10,594 nt of DNA from Dehalococcoidia bacterium (GTDB taxonomy: Bacteria > Chloroflexota > Dehalococcoidia > GIF9 > AB-539-J10), in the NCBI GenBank assembly GCA_030612345.1, contig JAUWOB010000016.1:1-10594 (forward strand). Direction: 5' to 3'. A program made the translations under genes and the position numbers. Positions 1,802-10,556 of this stretch are shown here, piece after piece (the first letter of the stretch is position 1; each line of letters starts with the position of its first letter). The notes below the pieces were generated by a model. The model saw only the letters and a list, made by a program, of their open reading frames with translations, made no database searches and was not told the DNA's origin.

Positions 1802-3709
1802 ATGAAAAGCGGGATTATCAGAGTGGCTCTTTGCCTGGCGCTGATCGGGGCTGCGCTCACGAGTCTGCAATGTGCTGAGCCTGTGGGAGCGAAGGAAATC
1901 AGCAGGTTCTCCTCGTATCAGCAGCTGGTCGAATTCGTGGACACCAACACAAAGGACATCGGACGCTTCTGGCTCGCCAGGGCCGAAGGCGCCGCTGTCC
2001 CTGCCCCTGCCGCTGACGCCTCTGCCCCGGACTACTCGGCCACCAATATCCAGGTGGCTGGGGTGGACGAGGCGGACATAGTTAAGACGGACGGAGAGTA
2101 TATCTACGTGGTGGCAGGAAACACGCTTGCCATAGTCAGGGCCTACCCACCTGAAGATGCCGCAGTCCTGTCCGAAATTCAACTGGAGAGTATGGCCATG
2201 GGCATATTCATCAACGGAGACAGGCTGGTCGTTCTTGAGGGAGGAATGCCCTACTACTACTATGACGCGCCCATCAAGATGAGTGTGATCGGACCTTATG
2301 TGCCTTACCAACCCCGGACAGCTATCAAGGTGTATGATGTCTCAGACAGGCAGAATCCCTTGCTGGCTAGGGAGGTTTCTGTCGAGGGCGATTATGTGAG
2401 CTCGCGCATGATAGGTGACTATGTCTATGTCGTGATAAACGCGCCTGTGTACGGGGAGGAGGGTGAAGTACGTCTTCCTGTGGTTCGTGTCGGCGAGGAC
2501 GAGCAGGAAACGCCGGCCACCGAGATCTACTATTATGATACATACGACTACTTCTATCAGTACACAACTATCATTGCCGTGGACACCCAGAACGATGACC
2601 AGAAGCCCACTGCCGAGACTACCCTGTTGGGGGCCAGCGGCACGCTGTATGTCTCTCTGAGTAATATCTACCTGACCATCCCGGTATGGGGCAGGGTCAT
2701 GTGGGATGCCCAGACAACCGCTATCCACCGGATTCATATCGACGGTCCTGAGATTGAGTATGTTGCCAGCGGCGAAATCCCCGGCATGCTGCTCAATCAG
2801 TTCTCCATGGATGAGTACGATGGCTACTTCAGGGTGGCTGCCACCACCCACGGGCAAACATCCCGGAATCATATCTACACTCTGGATATGGACCTCAACA
2901 TTGTGGGCAGGCTAGAAGACCTCGCTCCGGGCGAGATCATCTACTCGGCCAGGTTCATGGGCGAAAGAGGCTACCTGGTAACCTTCACGACGGTTGCCCC
3001 GCTGTTCGTCATAGATCTGAAAGACCCCCGCAACCCTCAGGTGCTGGGCGAGTTAAAGGTAACCGGCTACTCGGGCTACCTCCACCCCTATGATGAGAAT
3101 CATCTGATAGGGATAGGCAAGGAAACAACGGAGGAGGGGGAATTTGCCTGGTATCAAGGAGTGAAGATCTCGCTCTTCGATGTCAGCGATGTCAAGAACC
3201 CGCGGGAGATAGGCAAGTATGAAATCGGCCACAGGGGAACCGATTCGCCCGTCCTGTGGGACCACAAGGCGTTTCTATTTGACAGGTCAAGGAACCTGCT
3301 GGTGATGCCCATCTGCCTTGCGGAGATAGATGAGGCCGACTATCCCGATGGAGTTCCCCCCTGGGCCTACGGCAACCCTGTCTGGCAGGGCGCTTATGTA
3401 TTCCATGTCTCGCCACAGGCAGGGCTCGGTCTGAAAGGCACCGTTACCCATTTTGATGCTCCGCCTGACGAGGAACAGTATTACTACTACTGCTACTCGC
3501 CCTTCACGGTGGAAAGGTCTCTTTACATAGGTGATGTTCTCTACACCATCTCGGGGGCCAAGATAAAGATGAACGACCTGGAGACTCTGGACTACATCAC
3601 TGACGTGAAGCTTCCATACTCAACCTGGGAACCAGAATACTACCCCCCCGAAGAACCCGGGGAGGTGGAACCGCCTCCGGCCGATGAACCTGGAGGCGAG
3701 AAACCCTAG
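1802..3709 (+). CDS. Secreted beta-propeller protein, copy 2 (complete)
   Basis: A complete 635-residue paralog of the preceding gene. Residues 1 to about 30 form a Sec signal peptide: a short basic start, then a hydrophobic core IIRVALCLALIGAALTSLQC. Cys24 is present, but SLQC is a poor lipobox, so cleavage near VGA-KE (30/31) is equally possible. A short helical segment (ISRFSSYQQLVEFVDTN, about 33-49) and an Ala/Pro linker lead into the family signature TNIQVAGVDEADIVKTDG at 81-98. The rest to about residue 600 is propeller-like, with tyrosine-rich patches (EIYYYDTYDYFYQY; EEQYYYYCYSPF). The last 30 residues (606-635) are rich in Pro and Glu and may be a disordered or wall-facing tail. The family's molecular role is unknown; an extracellular structural or binding function is inferred. 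A serpin follows 64 bases downstream with no obvious terminator between, so co-transcription is likely. Confidence 0.9.
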   Translation: MKSGIIRVALCLALIGAALTSLQCAEPVGAKEISRFSSYQQLVEFVDTNTKDIGRFWLARAEGAAVPAPAADASAPDYSATNIQVAGVDEADIVKTDGEYIYVVAGNTLAIVRAYPPEDAAVLSEIQLESMAMGIFINGDRLVVLEGGMPYYYYDAPIKMSVIGPYVPYQPRTAIKVYDVSDRQNPLLAREVSVEGDYVSSRMIGDYVYVVINAPVYGEEGEVRLPVVRVGEDEQETPATEIYYYDTYDYFYQYTTIIAVDTQNDDQKPTAETTLLGASGTLYVSLSNIYLTIPVWGRVMWDAQTTAIHRIHIDGPEIEYVASGEIPGMLLNQFSMDEYDGYFRVAATTHGQTSRNHIYTLDMDLNIVGRLEDLAPGEIIYSARFMGERGYLVTFTTVAPLFVIDLKDPRNPQVLGELKVTGYSGYLHPYDENHLIGIGKETTEEGEFAWYQGVKISLFDVSDVKNPREIGKYEIGHRGTDSPVLWDHKAFLFDRSRNLLVMPICLAEIDEADYPDGVPPWAYGNPVWQGAYVFHVSPQAGLGLKGTVTHFDAPPDEEQYYYYCYSPFTVERSLYIGDVLYTISGAKIKMNDLETLDYITDVKLPYSTWEPEYYPPEEPGEVEPPPADEPGGEKP

Positions 3710-3760
3710 AATGGCCACACTTGAACGGGAGAGCAGAACTGGGGAGTCGTGATGCTTGAC

Positions 3761-3767
3761 GGAGGTG
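3761..3767 (+). promoter_or_regulatory. Shine-Dalgarno site that fixes the serpin 1 start
   Basis: GGAGGTG lies six bases before the ATG at 3774. An in-frame TTG at 3756 and a GTG at 3765 also exist, but they lie just before or inside this site, so the ATG at 3774 is the better start. It also places the hydrophobic signal directly at the N terminus. Confidence 0.8.
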
Positions 3768-3773
3768 AATGAG

Positions 3774-5051
3774 ATGAGTAAGGCATTGCTATCACTATTG
3801 ATCCTGTTGCTGCTGTTGCCATTGATAGCCTGTGATCAGCCGGCAGCAGCCGAACTGCTGATGTCAGACAAGCCCCGGGTGACATCGCCGCAGATCGGCG
3901 CAGACGGCCTCGCCCTGCTGGTGCGGGGCAACAGCGCCTTCGCCTTCCAGCTTTATCAGGCGCTTAGAGAAAAAGAGGAGGGCAACTTCTTCTATTCTCC
4001 GCACAGCATCTCGGTGGCGCTGGCCCTGACCTATGCCGGAGCCCGTGGCGCAACCGAGGAGCAGATGGCCGATACGCTCCATTACCTTCTGGAACAGGGG
4101 AGGCTGCACCCGGCATTCAACTGGCTGGATGCGGAACTTGCCAAGAGGGGCGAAGGTGCCGAGGGCAAGGACGGCGAAGGGTTCAGGCTGAACGTCATCA
4201 ACGCCATCTGGGGGCAGAAGGACTATAGCTTCCTGCCCGCGTTCCTCGATGTTCTGGCCGAGAACTATGGTGCCGGGCTGAGAATACTCGACTTCATGAA
4301 CGAGACAGAGGAGTCCCGACTTGCTATCAACCGGTGGGTCAGCGGCCAGACTGAAGGACGCATTGAGGACCTTATCCCGCAGGGTGCGATTGATGTACTG
4401 ACCCGCCTTGTGTTGACCAACGCCATCTACTTCAACGCTGCCTGGGAACAGCCCTTCGATGAGGATATGACGGCAGACGGCCCCTTCTACCTGCTCAACG
4501 GCGGGCAGGTCACGGTGCCGATGATGAGGCAGACGGAGTCATTCGGCTACAGCGATGGGCAGGGATACCAGGCGATTGAGCTACTCTACGATGGTGGAGA
4601 GCTCTCCATGATCATCCTCGTGCCTGAAGCCGGCCAGTTCCGTCCTTTCGAAGAAGGTCTCGATGTCGAGCAGGTCTATGACATCATAAATGATCTGCAA
4701 CCTGCTCGGGTGGCGCTGATGATGCCCAGGTTTGAATTCGACTCAGAATTCAGCCTCAAGGATACCCTCGCCGGGATGGGCATGCCTGTTGCTTTCTCCG
4801 GCGCTGCCGATTTCTCCGGGATAACGGGTACACGAGACCTCTGCATAAGCGAGGTGCTCCACAAGGCTTTTGTCTCGCTAGATGAGGCAGGCACAGAGGC
4901 AGCAGCAGCCACGGCGGTGATCATGAGAGAGACCGCAGTGCCTAGTCAGCCAGTCGACGTTACCGTCAACCGCCCCTTCATCTTCCTCATTCGCGACATC
5001 GAGACGGGCGCCATTCTCTTCGTCGGGCGTGTCCTCAATCCCGGTGCGTAA
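3774..5051 (+). CDS. Serpin-family protease inhibitor, lipoprotein (serpin 1)
   Basis: 425 residues from the ATG that follows a strong ribosome site. The N terminus MSKALLSLLILLLLLPLIAC ends in a canonical lipobox (LIAC), so Cys20 should be lipidated and the inhibitor tethered outside the membrane. Serpin hallmarks are clear: GNFFYSPHSISVALALTYAGARG (in two parts: helix B and following), LTNAIYFNAAW (breach/shutter region), and the C-terminal RPFIFLI and ILFVGRVLNP. The hinge EAGTEAAAAT (P17 Glu371 to P8 Thr380) is the small-residue type needed for loop insertion, so this is predicted to be an inhibitory serpin trapping proteases by the suicide mechanism. Counting from the hinge gives P1-P1' as Thr387-Ala388, with Arg385 at P3. 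The loop is three residues longer than in serpin 2 or alpha-1-antitrypsin, so the bait bond is uncertain. It probably shares a transcript with the upstream propeller genes. Confidence 0.93.
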   Translation: MSKALLSLLILLLLLPLIACDQPAAAELLMSDKPRVTSPQIGADGLALLVRGNSAFAFQLYQALREKEEGNFFYSPHSISVALALTYAGARGATEEQMADTLHYLLEQGRLHPAFNWLDAELAKRGEGAEGKDGEGFRLNVINAIWGQKDYSFLPAFLDVLAENYGAGLRILDFMNETEESRLAINRWVSGQTEGRIEDLIPQGAIDVLTRLVLTNAIYFNAAWEQPFDEDMTADGPFYLLNGGQVTVPMMRQTESFGYSDGQGYQAIELLYDGGELSMIILVPEAGQFRPFEEGLDVEQVYDIINDLQPARVALMMPRFEFDSEFSLKDTLAGMGMPVAFSGAADFSGITGTRDLCISEVLHKAFVSLDEAGTEAAAATAVIMRETAVPSQPVDVTVNRPFIFLIRDIETGAILFVGRVLNPGA

Positions 5052-5367: not shown

Positions 5368-5464
5368 AAAGATGAGGTGAGATATTTAGGATATATGCCC
5401 GATGAGAGCAAGGAATACCCAGGCTCGGCAAACCACGTTTCTAAGCGTATTTAAGAATGTAGTG

Positions 5465-5480
5465 CGAGGCTTTAGCCTCG
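5465..5480. repeat. Perfect hairpin, TTTA loop
   Basis: CGAGGC-TTTA-GCCTCG is a six-base-pair stem with a four-base loop. It is followed four bases later by a second hairpin of identical geometry. With no T run after it, it looks more like a REP-type palindrome than a terminator. Confidence 0.6.
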
Positions 5481-5484
5481 TGCA

Positions 5485-5500
5485 CGACCCTGAAGGGTCG
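5485..5500. repeat. Perfect hairpin, TGAA loop
   Basis: CGACCC-TGAA-GGGTCG is a six-base-pair stem with a four-base loop, adjacent to the hairpin at 5465-5480. The twin arrangement of same-size stems is typical of dispersed intergenic palindromes and gives no direct sign of function. Confidence 0.6.
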
Positions 5501-5600
5501 CAGTACGAACCTCTTAGCGGAGCGCTCGATCTGGGCTTGTCCTGAGCGAAGCGAGGGAACTCGCCAAGCACTCTCGAATCGGGCATGCGACACTATAAAA

Positions 5601-5606
5601 AGGAGG
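5601..5606 (+). promoter_or_regulatory. Shine-Dalgarno site for the IdeS-like peptidase
   Basis: AGGAGG in the context AAAAAGGAGGAAAAT lies seven bases before the ATG at 5614. The strong site fixes the start in front of a clear signal peptide. Confidence 0.8.
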
Positions 5607-5613
5607 AAAATAG

Positions 5614-7668
5614 ATGAAGAAACCTAGATTAATAGTCAACATACTTGCATCCCTGACTATGATTTTGGCACTTGCGTTGACAGAGTTTGTACCACCGCCT
5701 GTCGCTAACGCTGTACTGGCTGATACGACCCAATCGGCCGCAATCACTGCCGCTGCTAGCGACATATCGATGCCAGCAGGCGATGCTCAAGTCTCTGAGA
5801 CCCCGCACTTCGACGGGTCAATTACTGCCTCCGGTGACACACCTACGGGCAGCAGTTACATGCTTGTTGATCATCGGGGCGGTAACTGGTGCGATACTGA
5901 GAAAGACCCCGGTCCTGAGGATGACCTCCTGTGCTGGGCTGCCGCTGCATCGAATATGATGGAGTGGACAGGTTGGGGTTTCGTCTCTACGTTTGACGAT
6001 ACAGATGATATGTTCCAGGAATATCAGGACCACTGGACCGATGAAGGTAGCCTTATAGGATATGGTCTGCTCTGGTGGTTTAATGGTATAGTGATAGACC
6101 CCGGAGATGGTTGGGCATCTGTTGACGTTGCGGGCAGTGGAAATTTCTGGGTCCCATACCTTTATCCATTCTATTCCGCCGAGTACGAGGGGTCGGATAC
6201 GCTGCAGTACATAGACAGCTATCTGCATAATGGAATGGCTGTCGGACTGGCGATATATGACGGCGGTCATGCCATCACCTGCTGGGGTTTTAATTATGAT
6301 TCCGGTGTTGATAAATCGACAGATCCACATAACTATTACAAAGGCGTTTGGGTAACTGATTCCGACGATAACAAGGGTGAATGGACTCCTCCTGACAGGC
6401 TACGGTACTACGATGTGACATATCATGATGGAAAGTGGTACATGGACAATTATGGAGGAGGGTGGTTCATTGAACGCGTGACAGGACTGGCACCCTTCCC
6501 CGGTGAGGCCCGACCTGTAGCCAATGCCGGTACTTCATATACCGGTTCTGAAGGTTCGCCCATTACCTTTACTGGTGCCGCTTCCACCGACGACGATGCC
6601 CTTCAGTACCGCTGGGACTTCGACGACGACCGTGTCTGGGATACCGCCTGGTCATCAAGCCCGACAGCCAGTTTTACCTGGCATGATGATTACAGCGGGA
6701 CCGTTGTCCTGGAAGTATTTGACGGCAGGCTGAGGGATGTTGATACGGCTACAGTCACCGTAAACAACGTCGCTCCGGTTATTACCGTAGTTGGAGACAC
6801 CATTAATGAAGATGGTACGGCAACAGTTAGCGGCACGATAACAGATCCCAGTAGTCTGGATACCTTCACTGTTGTGATTGACTGGGGAGAAGGATCCCCT
6901 CAGACATACAGCTACCCCGCCGGTAGCACATCCTACAGTGAGACGCATCAGTACTTGGACGATAACCCCACCGGGACACCCTCGGATGACTATCCAATAA
7001 GCGTGACGGTGACTGATGACGATGGGGGGGTTGGTACCGGATCCGGTACAGTAACCGTCAACAATGTCGATCCAGTGGCAACCAATATTACCATGGACCA
7101 ACCAAACGGGCAATTCATACTACCTACGGTTCATGAATTAGACTTTGCCGGAACATTCACCGATGTTGGAACCCAGGATACCCACACAGCAGTATGGGAT
7201 TGGGGAGACATGTCATCTTCAGCAGGTGTTGTCAGTGAATCTGGCGGCTCGGGAACAGTCACCGGATCACACATATACTCGGCACCCGGTGATTATGCTG
7301 TAACGTTAACGGTCACTGATGACGATACTGGCTCTCATTCCAATACATACCTGGTACATGTCCACGATGTCGATGAAGCCCTGATTATTACCAATAGCTA
7401 TATTCAGGGTCTGGACGACAGCTATTTCAAGGGCCCGGCAGGTAACCGCAAGGCAGCTATCGACAACATGTTTGATACTCTCGCTAAACAGTGGGCTGCT
7501 GAGGCATACAATGGAATGATACAGGACCTGCGTGACAATCTACGAGAGAAGGCCGACGGCTACGTCGATGGAAAGGCAAATAACGACTGGATAACAGACG
7601 CAGCGGCACAAGCGGAGATTTGCCAGAAGATAGACGATATTACAGCCTATCTAGAAATACTCCTGTAG
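5614..7668 (+). CDS. Secreted IdeS/Mac-like cysteine peptidase with PKD domains
   Basis: 684 residues. A Sec signal peptide (MKKPRLIVNILASLTMILAL onward, likely cut after ANA at 33 or VLA at 36) shows export. Residues about 85-295 match the streptococcal IgG-cleaving enzyme IdeS (MEROPS C66): DDLLCWAAAASNMMEW puts the nucleophile at Cys107. Lys97 sits ten residues before it, the same spacing as the oxyanion Lys84 before Cys94 in IdeS. GGHAITCWGFNYDS gives His219, and VWVTDSDDN gives Asp249 and Asp251, like IdeS Asp284/Asp286. Three PKD-like beta-sandwiches follow (about 301-388, 389-488, 489-588; VTVNNVxPV junctions, WDFDDD, WDWGD, VTVTDDDG). A helical C-terminal domain (590-684) ends the protein. 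The catalytic set looks complete, so activity is expected, but the substrate is unknown. PKD domains suggest attachment to protein or polysaccharide. Base composition is less GC-rich than in the propeller and serpin 1 genes. Confidence 0.85.
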   Translation: MKKPRLIVNILASLTMILALALTEFVPPPVANAVLADTTQSAAITAAASDISMPAGDAQVSETPHFDGSITASGDTPTGSSYMLVDHRGGNWCDTEKDPGPEDDLLCWAAAASNMMEWTGWGFVSTFDDTDDMFQEYQDHWTDEGSLIGYGLLWWFNGIVIDPGDGWASVDVAGSGNFWVPYLYPFYSAEYEGSDTLQYIDSYLHNGMAVGLAIYDGGHAITCWGFNYDSGVDKSTDPHNYYKGVWVTDSDDNKGEWTPPDRLRYYDVTYHDGKWYMDNYGGGWFIERVTGLAPFPGEARPVANAGTSYTGSEGSPITFTGAASTDDDALQYRWDFDDDRVWDTAWSSSPTASFTWHDDYSGTVVLEVFDGRLRDVDTATVTVNNVAPVITVVGDTINEDGTATVSGTITDPSSLDTFTVVIDWGEGSPQTYSYPAGSTSYSETHQYLDDNPTGTPSDDYPISVTVTDDDGGVGTGSGTVTVNNVDPVATNITMDQPNGQFILPTVHELDFAGTFTDVGTQDTHTAVWDWGDMSSSAGVVSESGGSGTVTGSHIYSAPGDYAVTLTVTDDDTGSHSNTYLVHVHDVDEALIITNSYIQGLDDSYFKGPAGNRKAAIDNMFDTLAKQWAAEAYNGMIQDLRDNLREKADGYVDGKANNDWITDAAAQAEICQKIDDITAYLEILL

Positions 7669-7820
7669 GCTGCAACTGCTTCTTCTCGTAAGCGATAACG
7701 CTGACGGTAGCAGAAGAGACGATAAAATCAAATAAATGTTACATGAATCTCTAGAGAACGGGATTTGTTCGTTTGATAATAGCTTAGGAATAGCCAAGAA
7801 TAATGGCAAAGGTAGTTGAA
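7669..7820 (+). promoter_or_regulatory. Intergenic spacer: weak stem-loops and a -10-like box
   Basis: Soon after the peptidase stop, TCTTCT (7681-7686) can pair with AGAAGA (7712-7717) around an inner AGCG-ATAA-CGCT stem-loop (7691-7702). No T run follows, so termination is doubtful. Further on, TTTGATAATAGC contains a -10-like GATAAT at 7775-7780, about 40 bases before the chosen serpin 2 start, without a good -35. Serpin 2 may thus have its own promoter. Confidence 0.25.
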
Positions 7821-9116
7821 ATGAAGACAATACTTCTGTTGGCAATAGTAGTAGTCCTGTTGAGTTTAGTGGCTTGTAGTGCATCGGTATTTGACGAAGT
7901 ATCTGAGCCCGATCAACCGGAATCAGGCGAAATACTACTATCAGAGAAACAACGGGTAACTTTGCGGGACGTGGATGAGACCGATCTGGCAACTCTGGTT
8001 GATGGAAATAACGCCTTTGCCTTCGACTTATATCAGATACTCAGACAGACGAGCGGAAACGTGTTCTATTCTCCTTGCAGCATCTCTCTTGCCCTGGCGA
8101 TGACCTATGCCGGTGCTCGTGGTGAGACGGAACAGCAAATGGCGGATACTCTTCACTTCATCCTACCCCAGGATCGTTTACATCCAGCATTCAATAGCCT
8201 CGATATCGAACTCAGCCAGCGTGGTGAAGGTGCTGAAGGCAAGGATGGAGAAGGTTTCAGGTTAAACATAGTCAATGCTATATGGGGCCAGAAGGACTAT
8301 CAATTCCTTGCTACCTTCCTCGATATCTTAGCCGAGAACTACGGCGCTGGGCTCAGAATTCTCGATTTCATCAAAGAGCCCGAAGAGTCTCGTATCACCA
8401 TCAACCAGTGGGTCAGTGACCAGACAGAAGGTCGGATTGAAGAGCTGATACAAGAAGGTCTTATTGATACATTTACCCGTCTGGTCCTCACGAATGCCGT
8501 TTACTTCAACGCGGCATGGGAGTATCCGTTTGAAGAGGACAGGACCTGCGATGGCGCCTTCTATCTTCTTAGTGGAGATGAGGTCACCGTGCCAATGATG
8601 AAGCGAACGGAATCATTCGGTTATACTGAGGGTGATGGCTACAAGGCAGTCGAACTGCCTTATGATGGTGGGGAGCTCTCGATGGTCGTCCTGCTACCCG
8701 AGGCTGGCAAGCTTGAGATGTTTGAAAGCTCTCTGGATGCCCAACAGATGGAGACTATTATGGAGGCTCTGGAACCCAACCAGATTGCCTTAACCTTGCC
8801 GCAATTTGAATTTGAGTCTGAATACAGTCTGAAGGAAGTTCTTACAGTGATGGGAATGCCGGCTGCTTTCTCAGCAAGGGCGGACTTTTCAGGCATGGCG
8901 CATAATCGCGAACTGTACATCGACGACGTAGTTCATAGGACATTCCTTTCTGTAGATGAAGCGGGTACAGAGGCAGCAGCTGCCACTGCAGTAATCGTGG
9001 CAGTGATAGGAATGCCTATTACAGTTACTATTGACCGTCCCTTTATTCTATTCATCCGTGACATTGAGACGGGCGCCATTCTCTTTGTCGGCCGCGTGCT
9101 GAATCCCGCCGTATAA
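7821..9116 (+). CDS. Serpin-family protease inhibitor, lipoprotein (serpin 2)
   Basis: 431 residues from the ATG at 7821. An in-frame ATG at 7803 adds six residues, but AAAGGTAG before 7821 lines up with serpin 1's ribosome site, so the later start is preferred. MKTILLLAIVVVLLSLVAC ends in a good lipobox (LVAC), so it is a membrane-anchored exported protein. Serpin motifs match serpin 1 (GNVFYSPCSISLALAMTYAG, LTNAVYFNAAW, RPFILFI, ILFVGRVLNP), about two-thirds identical by eye. The hinge EAGTEAAAAT (Glu380-Thr389) is identical and inhibitory in type. The loop then differs completely: VIVAVIGMPI, with P1-P1' counted as Ile396-Gly397, at the same loop length as alpha-1-antitrypsin. This suggests elastase-like or other targets that prefer hydrophobic residues. 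Third codon positions are visibly less GC-rich than in serpin 1. It lies 152 bases after the peptidase gene and converges on the ATPase gene. Confidence 0.92.
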   Translation: MKTILLLAIVVVLLSLVACSASVFDEVSEPDQPESGEILLSEKQRVTLRDVDETDLATLVDGNNAFAFDLYQILRQTSGNVFYSPCSISLALAMTYAGARGETEQQMADTLHFILPQDRLHPAFNSLDIELSQRGEGAEGKDGEGFRLNIVNAIWGQKDYQFLATFLDILAENYGAGLRILDFIKEPEESRITINQWVSDQTEGRIEELIQEGLIDTFTRLVLTNAVYFNAAWEYPFEEDRTCDGAFYLLSGDEVTVPMMKRTESFGYTEGDGYKAVELPYDGGELSMVVLLPEAGKLEMFESSLDAQQMETIMEALEPNQIALTLPQFEFESEYSLKEVLTVMGMPAAFSARADFSGMAHNRELYIDDVVHRTFLSVDEAGTEAAAATAVIVAVIGMPITVTIDRPFILFIRDIETGAILFVGRVLNPAV

Positions 9117-9149: not shown

Positions 9150-9184
9150 GGCGAAAGGCGCAGATCAGTAGCGCCTGGCTCGCC
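9150..9184. terminator. Nested inverted repeat at the convergent gene ends
   Basis: GGCGC (9157-9161) pairs with GCGCC (9171-9175), and outside it GGCGA (9150-9154) pairs with TCGCC (9180-9184). The structure spans the stop codon of the minus-strand ATPase, 34 bases after the serpin 2 stop. It has no T run on either strand, so a bidirectional terminator is only a possibility. Confidence 0.25.
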
Positions 9185-10556
9185 TTACAGGTTTTACGTT
9201 GCCCCGATAGTCGGGCGCGGTGATGTTGAAGACCAGGCTTATCCTGGTATCCACCATTGGGGAACTGATGCGTGTCTCGATTTCGTCTAAGGAGAGACAC
9301 GTAGTGACCACCATCGGCAACCTGGCATTATAACGGTAGTTTATCAACTGATAGAGCTTCTCCTGTGCCCACGGCGTGGCCGACTGCTCCCCGAAGTCAT
9401 CCAGTATCAGCAGTGGAATCTCCTTGAGCTTCTCAGAGTACTCATCGTAGGATATTTTGCTCTCCGGGCTGAATGTCGAGCGCAGATGGTCCAGAAGGTC
9501 GGGAACAACCACAAAGAAGACCCGGTTTCCATGCGCCCGCCGATGATTGGCAATGGCCGCTGCCAGATGGGTCTTGCCGCAGCCATTAACGCCCTGAAAG
9601 ATGAGCCAGCCCTCCGGCGAGCGGGCGAATTCCACCGCCAGATCGAAAGCCTGGCGCAAGTTCTGACGCTGTTCCAGCGGGAGCTCCAGTCTCTTGTGGT
9701 CAAAGCTATCAAAGGTCATGTTCCGTAATAGCTCCAAACCCAGGCCCCCCTGGTCTTCTAGGGGCGATTCTTGCTCAATCGTCAGTACCCGGCAAAACTC
9801 GTTACTGGCCAGACGGCCACGTAAGCGTTCATCCACTTTTTCCAGCGGCGTATCGGTGGTGATCACCGTAGCTAGCCTGGCGTTGAAGCGATGATTGAGG
9901 AGTTGTTCCAGCTTTTCTTTGGCCCAGGCGGTAGCGCTTCCCAGCGAAAGGTCATCAAGTACCAGCAGAGGCACATTCCTTACTTGCTCAAATAACTCGT
10001 CATAGGTGGTGTCGCTGGTGGGACTGAAGGCCGAGCGGAGGTGGTCTAAGAGGTCAGCAGTGCCAATGTACAATACAGGCTTCCCTGAGCTGAGGCAGTG
10101 ACTGGCTATAGCACAGGCCAGGTGTGTCTTGCCACATCCGCTAGGACCTGAAAGCACCAGCCAACCCTCAGGGTTATCGGCAAAGGCCCTGGCAGCTTGA
10201 TAGACCTGAGCAAAGTGCTCCTGGGCAGCAGCACTGGCCGTCTTACCCTTGGGAGATAGGTTCTCAAAGGTAAGCTGGGAGAGCGCACCCAGATTACTGT
10301 ATTTCTCAAGGTATTCTGTTTTTCGCCTTCTTAGCTCCCCTCTACTGCATGCGCAGGGCACCACCCGACTGAAATCGGCTTGTCCTGAATCCAGAGCAGG
10401 ATGAACAAAGCCGGCCCCCCTGCAAACAGGGCAGATTTCACCCTCCTCTTCTTCCGCCGGGGAAGAGGAAATCCTATCTCCTGACCAGGTGTCCATATCG
10501 ACCCTTGACGTATTTGTCCGGGCCATCTTTCTTAATGTCTCTCTTATGCTCTCCAC
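9165..10556 (-). CDS. DnaC/DnaI-like AAA+ ATPase with two tandem ATPase domains
   Basis: 463 residues from a GTG at 10556. The frame stays open to the window edge, so the true start may lie further upstream; ATG Met11 is another option. An N-terminal Cys-pair motif, CPVC (42-45) and CAC (68-70), suggests a small zinc-binding domain as in helicase loaders. Two full ATPase domains follow, each opening with a DnaC-family TFxxF-like motif (LTFENL at 95; MTFDSF at 280). Domain 1 has Walker A GPSGCGKTH (137-145), Walker B LLVLDDL (197-203), sensor VITTD and arginines in RLRGRLAS. Domain 2 has GVNGCGKTH (322-330) and LLILDDFG (382-389), but VTTC at sensor 1 and ISSPMVD where the arginine-finger box is expected. 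Single-domain loaders are the norm, so this is an internal duplication. Helicase loading or a related DNA role is likely. IstB-type transposition helper is an alternative, but no transposase is present. Confidence 0.85.
   Translation of the reverse strand: MESIRETLRKMARTNTSRVDMDTWSGDRISSSPAEEEEGEICPVCRGAGFVHPALDSGQADFSRVVPCACSRGELRRRKTEYLEKYSNLGALSQLTFENLSPKGKTASAAAQEHFAQVYQAARAFADNPEGWLVLSGPSGCGKTHLACAIASHCLSSGKPVLYIGTADLLDHLRSAFSPTSDTTYDELFEQVRNVPLLVLDDLSLGSATAWAKEKLEQLLNHRFNARLATVITTDTPLEKVDERLRGRLASNEFCRVLTIEQESPLEDQGGLGLELLRNMTFDSFDHKRLELPLEQRQNLRQAFDLAVEFARSPEGWLIFQGVNGCGKTHLAAAIANHRRAHGNRVFFVVVPDLLDHLRSTFSPESKISYDEYSEKLKEIPLLILDDFGEQSATPWAQEKLYQLINYRYNARLPMVVTTCLSLDEIETRISSPMVDTRISLVFNITAPDYRGNVKPVRRARRY
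9201..9719 (-). repeat. Second ATPase unit of the tandem duplication
   Basis: This segment encodes residues about 280-452 of the ATPase and is homologous to the unit encoded by about 10271-9771. Shared strings include CGKTHLA, DLLDHLRS, FSP and LLxLDD, in the same order and spacing. The copies have diverged well beyond recent duplication, most strongly after Walker B. Confidence 0.75.

Follow-up and report, generated by a model that had tools for sequence, protein, structure and literature searches.

A compact IdeS/Mac-like (C66-type) cysteine peptidase, probably secreted, in a Dehalococcoidia bacterium

C66 enzymes appear, in the literature excerpts consulted, as immune-evasion factors or antibody-cutting tools, and a gene predicting such an enzyme in a Dehalococcoidia bacterium, probably free-living or environmental, raises the question of what it might cut. 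The gene lies in a stretch of 10,594 bases (referred to here as the window), which is the entire contig JAUWOB010000016.1 of a draft genome (G000; 960,572 bases, 69% complete). The favoured reading, with a probability of approximately 0.66, is that it predicts a secreted, catalytically competent compact C66 cysteine endopeptidase that would serve in extracellular protein breakdown and not in immunoglobulin cleavage. Features of the gene are listed below; residues described as invariant are so in 10/10 aligned members, with IdeS equivalents from a HMMER alignment.

5601..5606, forward strand: Shine-Dalgarno-like AGGAGG, 7 bases short of the ATG (sequence)
5614..7668, forward strand: IdeS/Mac-like (C66-type) cysteine peptidase, probably secreted, 684 amino acids (open reading frame list, Pfam, homolog profile)
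5614..5721, forward strand: signal-peptide-like N-terminus, approximately residues 1-36, KKPR then a hydrophobic core (hydropathy and sequence reading)
5851..6501, forward strand: predicted compact C66-type catalytic domain, approximately residues 80-296 (alignments A1 and A3, profile, structure comparisons)
5902..5904, forward strand: Lys97, equivalent of IdeS Lys84, invariant
5932..5934, forward strand: Cys107, predicted nucleophile (IdeS Cys94), invariant
6268..6270, forward strand: His219, predicted general base (IdeS His262), invariant
6358..6366, forward strand: Asp249-Ser-Asp251 (IdeS Asp284, Asp286), invariant
6505..6786, forward strand: PKD domain 1 (PF18911, 39.3 bits, cut-off 27, segment alone)
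6772..7083, forward strand: PKD-like domain 2 (PF18911, 16.2 bits, under the cut-off of 27, segment alone)
7069..7380, forward strand: PKD domain 3 (PF18911, 38.9 bits, cut-off 27, segment alone)
7366..7665, forward strand: C-terminal tail of approximately 100 residues, outside known families (Pfam, PDB and genome searches)

The reading frame opens with ATG, and its N-terminus is probably a signal peptide for export via Sec. Three PKD_4 stretches were found in a Pfam scan of the full-length protein. A preliminary description, made from the letters of the window, had counted three PKD domains; the first and third stand, and the middle one falls short when taken alone. The tail has no Pfam match, its best PDB match (E 0.39) is not convincing, and no second copy was found among 151 genomes including its own. 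No dockerin was detected by Pfam in the full-length peptidase or in its cut segments.

Assignment of the catalytic domain

With the full-length peptidase, Pfam reports PKD and Ig-like families only, and phmmer against PDB places IdeS at E 0.017. The absence of C66 from the full-length scan was rejected as a conclusion, as the domain alone gives a weak match to Mac-1 (PF09028; E 0.0053, 16.2-16.4 bits) and the family profile a clear one. Alignment A3 comprises 10 sequences, the peptidase and nine relatives, of 13 loci found (L and G numbers designate loci and genomes). PF09028 is the sole Pfam family at E ≤ 1 for all ten aligned domains, the best at E 8.3e-7. Among the relatives, L034 scores 25 bits, above the curated cut-off of 20.3, while L050 (15.7), L053 (14.0), L054 (19.9) and L055 (18.0) are below it as full proteins. 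Full-length L033, L035 and L052 show no Mac-1 at E ≤ 0.5, but their isolated domains match at E ≤ 1.

Family profiles were compared with 177,635 PDB sequences at E ≤ 10. The six-row profile retrieved nine sequences, all C66 (best 1.1e-7). The ten-row profile gave eleven matches, of which the top nine are all C66 (best 2AU1, 5.7e-9) and the remaining two, chains related to major histocompatibility complex class I (E 0.44 and 0.84), were taken as chance. A script run on the alignment confirmed that Lys97, Cys107, His219, Asp249 and Asp251 are invariant, with the DSD motif kept in 10/10 members. The order Lys, Cys, His, Asp is that of C66, and the residues align to the IdeS blocks by HMMER. Because all ten homologs keep the motif and the profile finds nine C66 PDB sequences first, the motif is considered to be beyond chance. 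By profile, the predicted C66 relationship holds.

Two AlphaFold models (mean pLDDT, predicted local distance difference test, 48.6 and 51.5, hence of low confidence) rank C66 structures first, and T-Mac structures are the only Foldseek matches of the peptidase model at E ≤ 0.001. The staphopains (C47; PDB 1CV8 and 1PXV), which would share the predicted papain fold, are the nearest non-C66 structural matches, but they score lower and the sequence profile does not reach them at E ≤ 10. Both Foldseek and the family profile place C66 first, with a gap.

The catalytic core of IdeS/Mac (C66) type proposed in the preliminary description is borne out by these searches, as are its residue numbers, its spacings (Lys to Cys 10, Cys to His 112, His to Asp249 30) and the active-site lysine conserved ten residues before the cysteine. 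Its statement that the core matches IdeS closely applies to the active-site blocks and not to the whole, given that structural alignments show 14-17% identity to C66 structures and the PF09028 score is under the cut-off.

Compact form and relatives

IdeS is numbered K84/C94/H262/D284/D286, with 168 residues from Cys to His, and T-Mac K379/C412/H561/E583/N585, with 149, in the available excerpt of PMC11833123. In the peptidase this spacing is 112 residues, and it is 112-118 across the ten members (script). The domain is not of IdeS-type size (approximately 168 residues from Cys to His) and is predicted to be a compact C66 form, in which the main gap to IdeS is approximately 55 fewer residues between Cys and His. 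The segment immediately before the His is also short (IYDGGH); the corresponding IdeS loop is described as the main immunoglobulin G (IgG) contact in the same excerpt [PMC11833123]. Lys and Cys are 10 residues apart in the peptidase, 10-11 in nine of the ten members and 22 in L036, which has an insert, and the Lys would therefore be positioned as in IdeS and not as in T-Mac (33). The preliminary description had singled out the His-Asp spacing of 30 as a difference from IdeS. The value is correct, but as the key difference it was rejected, since this loop varies from 21 to 30 residues among the ten members, the peptidase being at the upper limit.

IdeS/Mac-1 of Streptococcus pyogenes (C66, PF09028; PDB 1Y08, 2AU1, 8A47) shares with the peptidase the Lys-10-Cys spacing, the DDLLC-xAA block, a His within an H-x-[IV]-x-x-WG block and the TDSD block. 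The peptidase differs in its 112 rather than 168 Cys-His residues, its shorter pre-His loop, its PKD domains and tail, and its host. T-Mac (TDE0362) of Treponema denticola (PDB 9ARC, 9MDO) is likewise a secreted, non-streptococcal C66 enzyme with Ig-like domains, but there the Ig-like domains come first, the triad is Cys/His/Asn and the Lys lies 33 residues before the Cys, according to the excerpt of PMC11833123. In the peptidase the PKD domains follow the catalytic domain, and the Asp/Asp pair and Lys-10-Cys spacing are IdeS-like. T-Mac is described in that excerpt as not cleaving IgG and as cutting C3, C3b, C4 and FH [PMC11833123]. IdeC of Streptococcus canis (PDB 9HB1, 9HB2) is IgG-specific in the available part of PMC12418751 and has a larger domain than the peptidase. 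The non-streptococcal host and modular architecture noted in the preliminary description are upheld, but a C66 domain fused to Ig-like domains outside streptococci has published precedent in T-Mac. For Clostridium sordellii, too, a Mac-1 domain is described [PMC4434542]. No pointer to C66 in Chloroflexota or Planctomycetota was found among the open-access search hits listed, which is weak evidence of absence.

One of the nine aligned relatives belongs to the same class and eight are in planctomycete genomes. The same-class relative, L050 in G391, is 65% identical to the peptidase, and the two group together in the tree (support 100/99; the root is for drawing only). A contig scan yielded 4 relatives, all in planctomycete metagenome-assembled genomes (MAGs), and further planctomycete copies are in G452 (2 in all), G453 (3 in all) and G534. 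The peptidase was found in 1 of 60 related genomes, its own, and in none of the 19 other drafts of the same genus. Class-wide it is in 2 of 393 genomes (G000 and G391), and 5 of the 343 sampled around planctomycete G454 are positive, namely G454, G534, G547 (split), and G581 and G785 (weak). It is an accessory gene, sporadic in the samples searched. Reductive-dehalogenase matches (E ≤ 0.001) number 20-27 in each of five single-contig relatives of the class, most above the cut-off; G000 has 1 weak match and G391 has 3. No control genome (0/14) passes the cut-off, and 11 match below it. This pattern would place the host in Dehalococcoidia.

Pfam scans covered eight of the nine aligned relatives (all except L036), full length or to the contig end, and detected the following.

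L050 (G391), the nearest relative: PKD and dockerin, the dockerin above cut-off
L033, L052 and L053: P_proprotein and SdrD_B (SdrD_B below cut-off in L053)
L035: ten PPC domains and a dockerin, the dockerin above cut-off
L054: dockerin above cut-off and a sub-threshold PEP-CTERM
L055: sub-threshold PEP-CTERM
L034: C66 domain, nothing else above cut-off

The C66 domain is paired with differing modules across the relatives; P-domain, PPC, PKD, dockerin and similar domains are modules of secreted hydrolases. In G391, the next long gene past the peptidase (L050:15143-16384) begins approximately 545 bases on, with an unassigned 133-codon frame between. The N-terminal part of its product resembles the cellulosomal scaffoldin 4UMS (E 6.3e-4) and is cohesin-like, a cadherin-like domain is present, and the end resembles a membrane anchor by sequence. 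The pairing of a dockerin-bearing enzyme with a neighbouring cohesin-like surface protein points to surface attachment in G391, a single case.

More distant papain-like proteins with a DNSCWMA[AS]ASN motif occur in the planctomycete sample (L057:3259-6534 and L058:3297-6146), matching profile A1 at E 1.8e-7 and 4.5e-5, respectively. In L057, DUF7901 and, below threshold, a dockerin-like end are also present.

Predicted function and alternative explanations

The gene would direct probable Sec export of a papain-fold C66 endopeptidase, in which Cys107 would attack the peptide bond, His219 would act as the base and Asp249/Asp251 would orient the histidine. By homology, Lys97 may have the supporting active-site role of IdeS Lys84. 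The PKD domains could hold the catalytic domain off the cell or on its substrate, and a C-terminal module (the tail here, a dockerin in the nearest relative) could tether the enzyme to the cell surface or within an extracellular assembly. The likely task would be nutritional breakdown of proteins or peptides outside the cell, or trimming of surface proteins; export, activity, surface attachment and the nutritional role are all inferred. The view in the preliminary description that the substrate would differ from that of IdeS is reasonable as a prediction. IgG is an unlikely substrate, because both the pre-His segment and the Cys-His region are short and the pre-His loop is the main IgG contact of IdeS.

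Several observations weigh against this reading. The PF09028 score of the peptidase is under the curated cut-off, and its genome is not listed in a PF09028 search of whole genomes at E ≤ 0.1. Both AlphaFold models are poor, with pLDDT <50 in the Cys-bearing half, and are unsuited to judging active-site geometry. In VIA-align, several C66 rows are <1 Z above a staphopain, a tie by the rule of that tool. In G391, Pfam calls no cohesin in the neighbour of the peptidase (L050:15143-16384).

Convergence on the IdeS motifs by a different papain-fold family, staphopain-like C47 or an unnamed one of clan CA, would account for the closeness to staphopains in VIA-align, but profile and Foldseek both put C66 first with a gap, all ten members match PF09028 only, the Lys precedes the Cys by 10-11 residues in nine of ten and DSD is universal among them; this origin is highly improbable. 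Use against a partner organism, eukaryotic or bacterial, with the enzyme cleaving the surface or immune-like proteins of competing bacteria, animals or protists much as T-Mac cuts complement, would suit the sporadic distribution expected of an accessory interaction gene. It would also agree with the characterised C66 members encountered, which cut host defence proteins in the available parts of the sources (IdeS, Mac-1 and T-Mac, PMC11833123; IdeC, PMC12418751; IdeSsuis, PMC6177247). However, four relatives come from planctomycete MAGs (one Lac Pavin sediment-type sample) with titles that name no host, and the pre-His loop and Cys-His region that are short here include the main IgG contact of IdeS as described in the excerpt; such a role is considered unlikely.

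The remaining alternative concerns the two genes that flank the peptidase on the same strand.

3756..5051, forward strand: serpin 1 (PF00079, E 1e-114), resembling serpins beside a beta-propeller gene in relatives
7803..9116, forward strand: serpin 2, directly downstream of the peptidase (PF00079, E 6.6e-118)

Either serpin, chiefly serpin 2, could restrain the peptidase or shield the cell from it, in the manner of staphostatins and staphopains. The position of the peptidase between them agrees with this, as does the reactive loop of serpin 2, where the hinge-to-PF segment has 33 residues, three fewer than in serpin 1; in the serpins from 14 other genomes the segment measures 36 residues (13 genomes) or 37 (one genome). 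Yet serpins are present in 15 of the 20 genomes searched, its own included, and the peptidase in its own alone, such that a serpin is not tied to the peptidase; a conserved serpin-peptidase operon was rejected on the same counts. Nor did tblastn at E ≤ 1e-5 find a serpin on the contig (38 kb) that carries the nearest relative. Serpins are, moreover, mostly inhibitors of serine peptidases, and a peptidase-inhibitor locus is rather unlikely. Extracellular protein breakdown by a compact C66 endopeptidase is preferred over these alternatives.

Little is known of how uncultured bacteria break down extracellular proteins, and this would add a cysteine-peptidase family to that picture. The minimal branch, not evidently host-associated, retains the whole active site without the parts presumed to hold IgG, and as a natural comparison would reveal the activity of the bare catalytic core and where the specificity of the specialists arose. 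A further scenario, possible though doubtful, is that this compact environmental branch of Planctomycetota and Dehalococcoidia, a plug-in domain of secreted modular or dockerin proteins, represents the older general form, and that the antibody- and complement-cutting enzymes of streptococci and Treponema became specialised afterwards, having acquired the Cys-His insert together with a long substrate loop.

Neighbouring genes and upstream repeat

The other genes in the window are a tandem beta-propeller pair and an ATPase gene.

1-1710 and 1802-3709: tandem pair of Beta_propel (PF09826) genes, approximately 72% identical to each other, with 85% DNA identity over 815 bases
9165-10556, reverse strand: two DnaC/IstB-type AAA ATPase stretches in one chain

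Of 8 stretches from relatives that were examined, 4 have beta-propeller and serpin genes side by side (G002, G004, G006 and G008, all of the same genus); in these, by sequence reading, a single beta-propeller gene adjoins the serpin after sigma-factor-like genes. Serpin 1 is closer to the serpins of relatives (72.7-78.0% identity) than serpin 2 is (65.3-70.5%). A contaminant contig was rejected on the basis of the beta-propeller and serpin counterparts, which are 60-78% identical in relatives and adjoin in those 4 of 8 stretches. The AAA protein has a counterpart in G006 (83% identity over 258 residues, truncated at the end of the sequence compared), and several other genes separate the serpin and AAA genes there. 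Between serpin 1 and the AAA gene, the peptidase and serpin 2 seem to have been added.

Approximately 100-160 bases upstream of the peptidase is a dispersed repeat of approximately 60 bases (5450-5510) containing two adjacent stem-loops. Matching copies are present in 21 of 30 genomes, its own included, with up to 23 per genome. The repeat may resemble a repetitive extragenic palindrome (REP) or a miniature inverted-repeat transposable element (MITE), and could have been a partner in the insertion of the peptidase gene.
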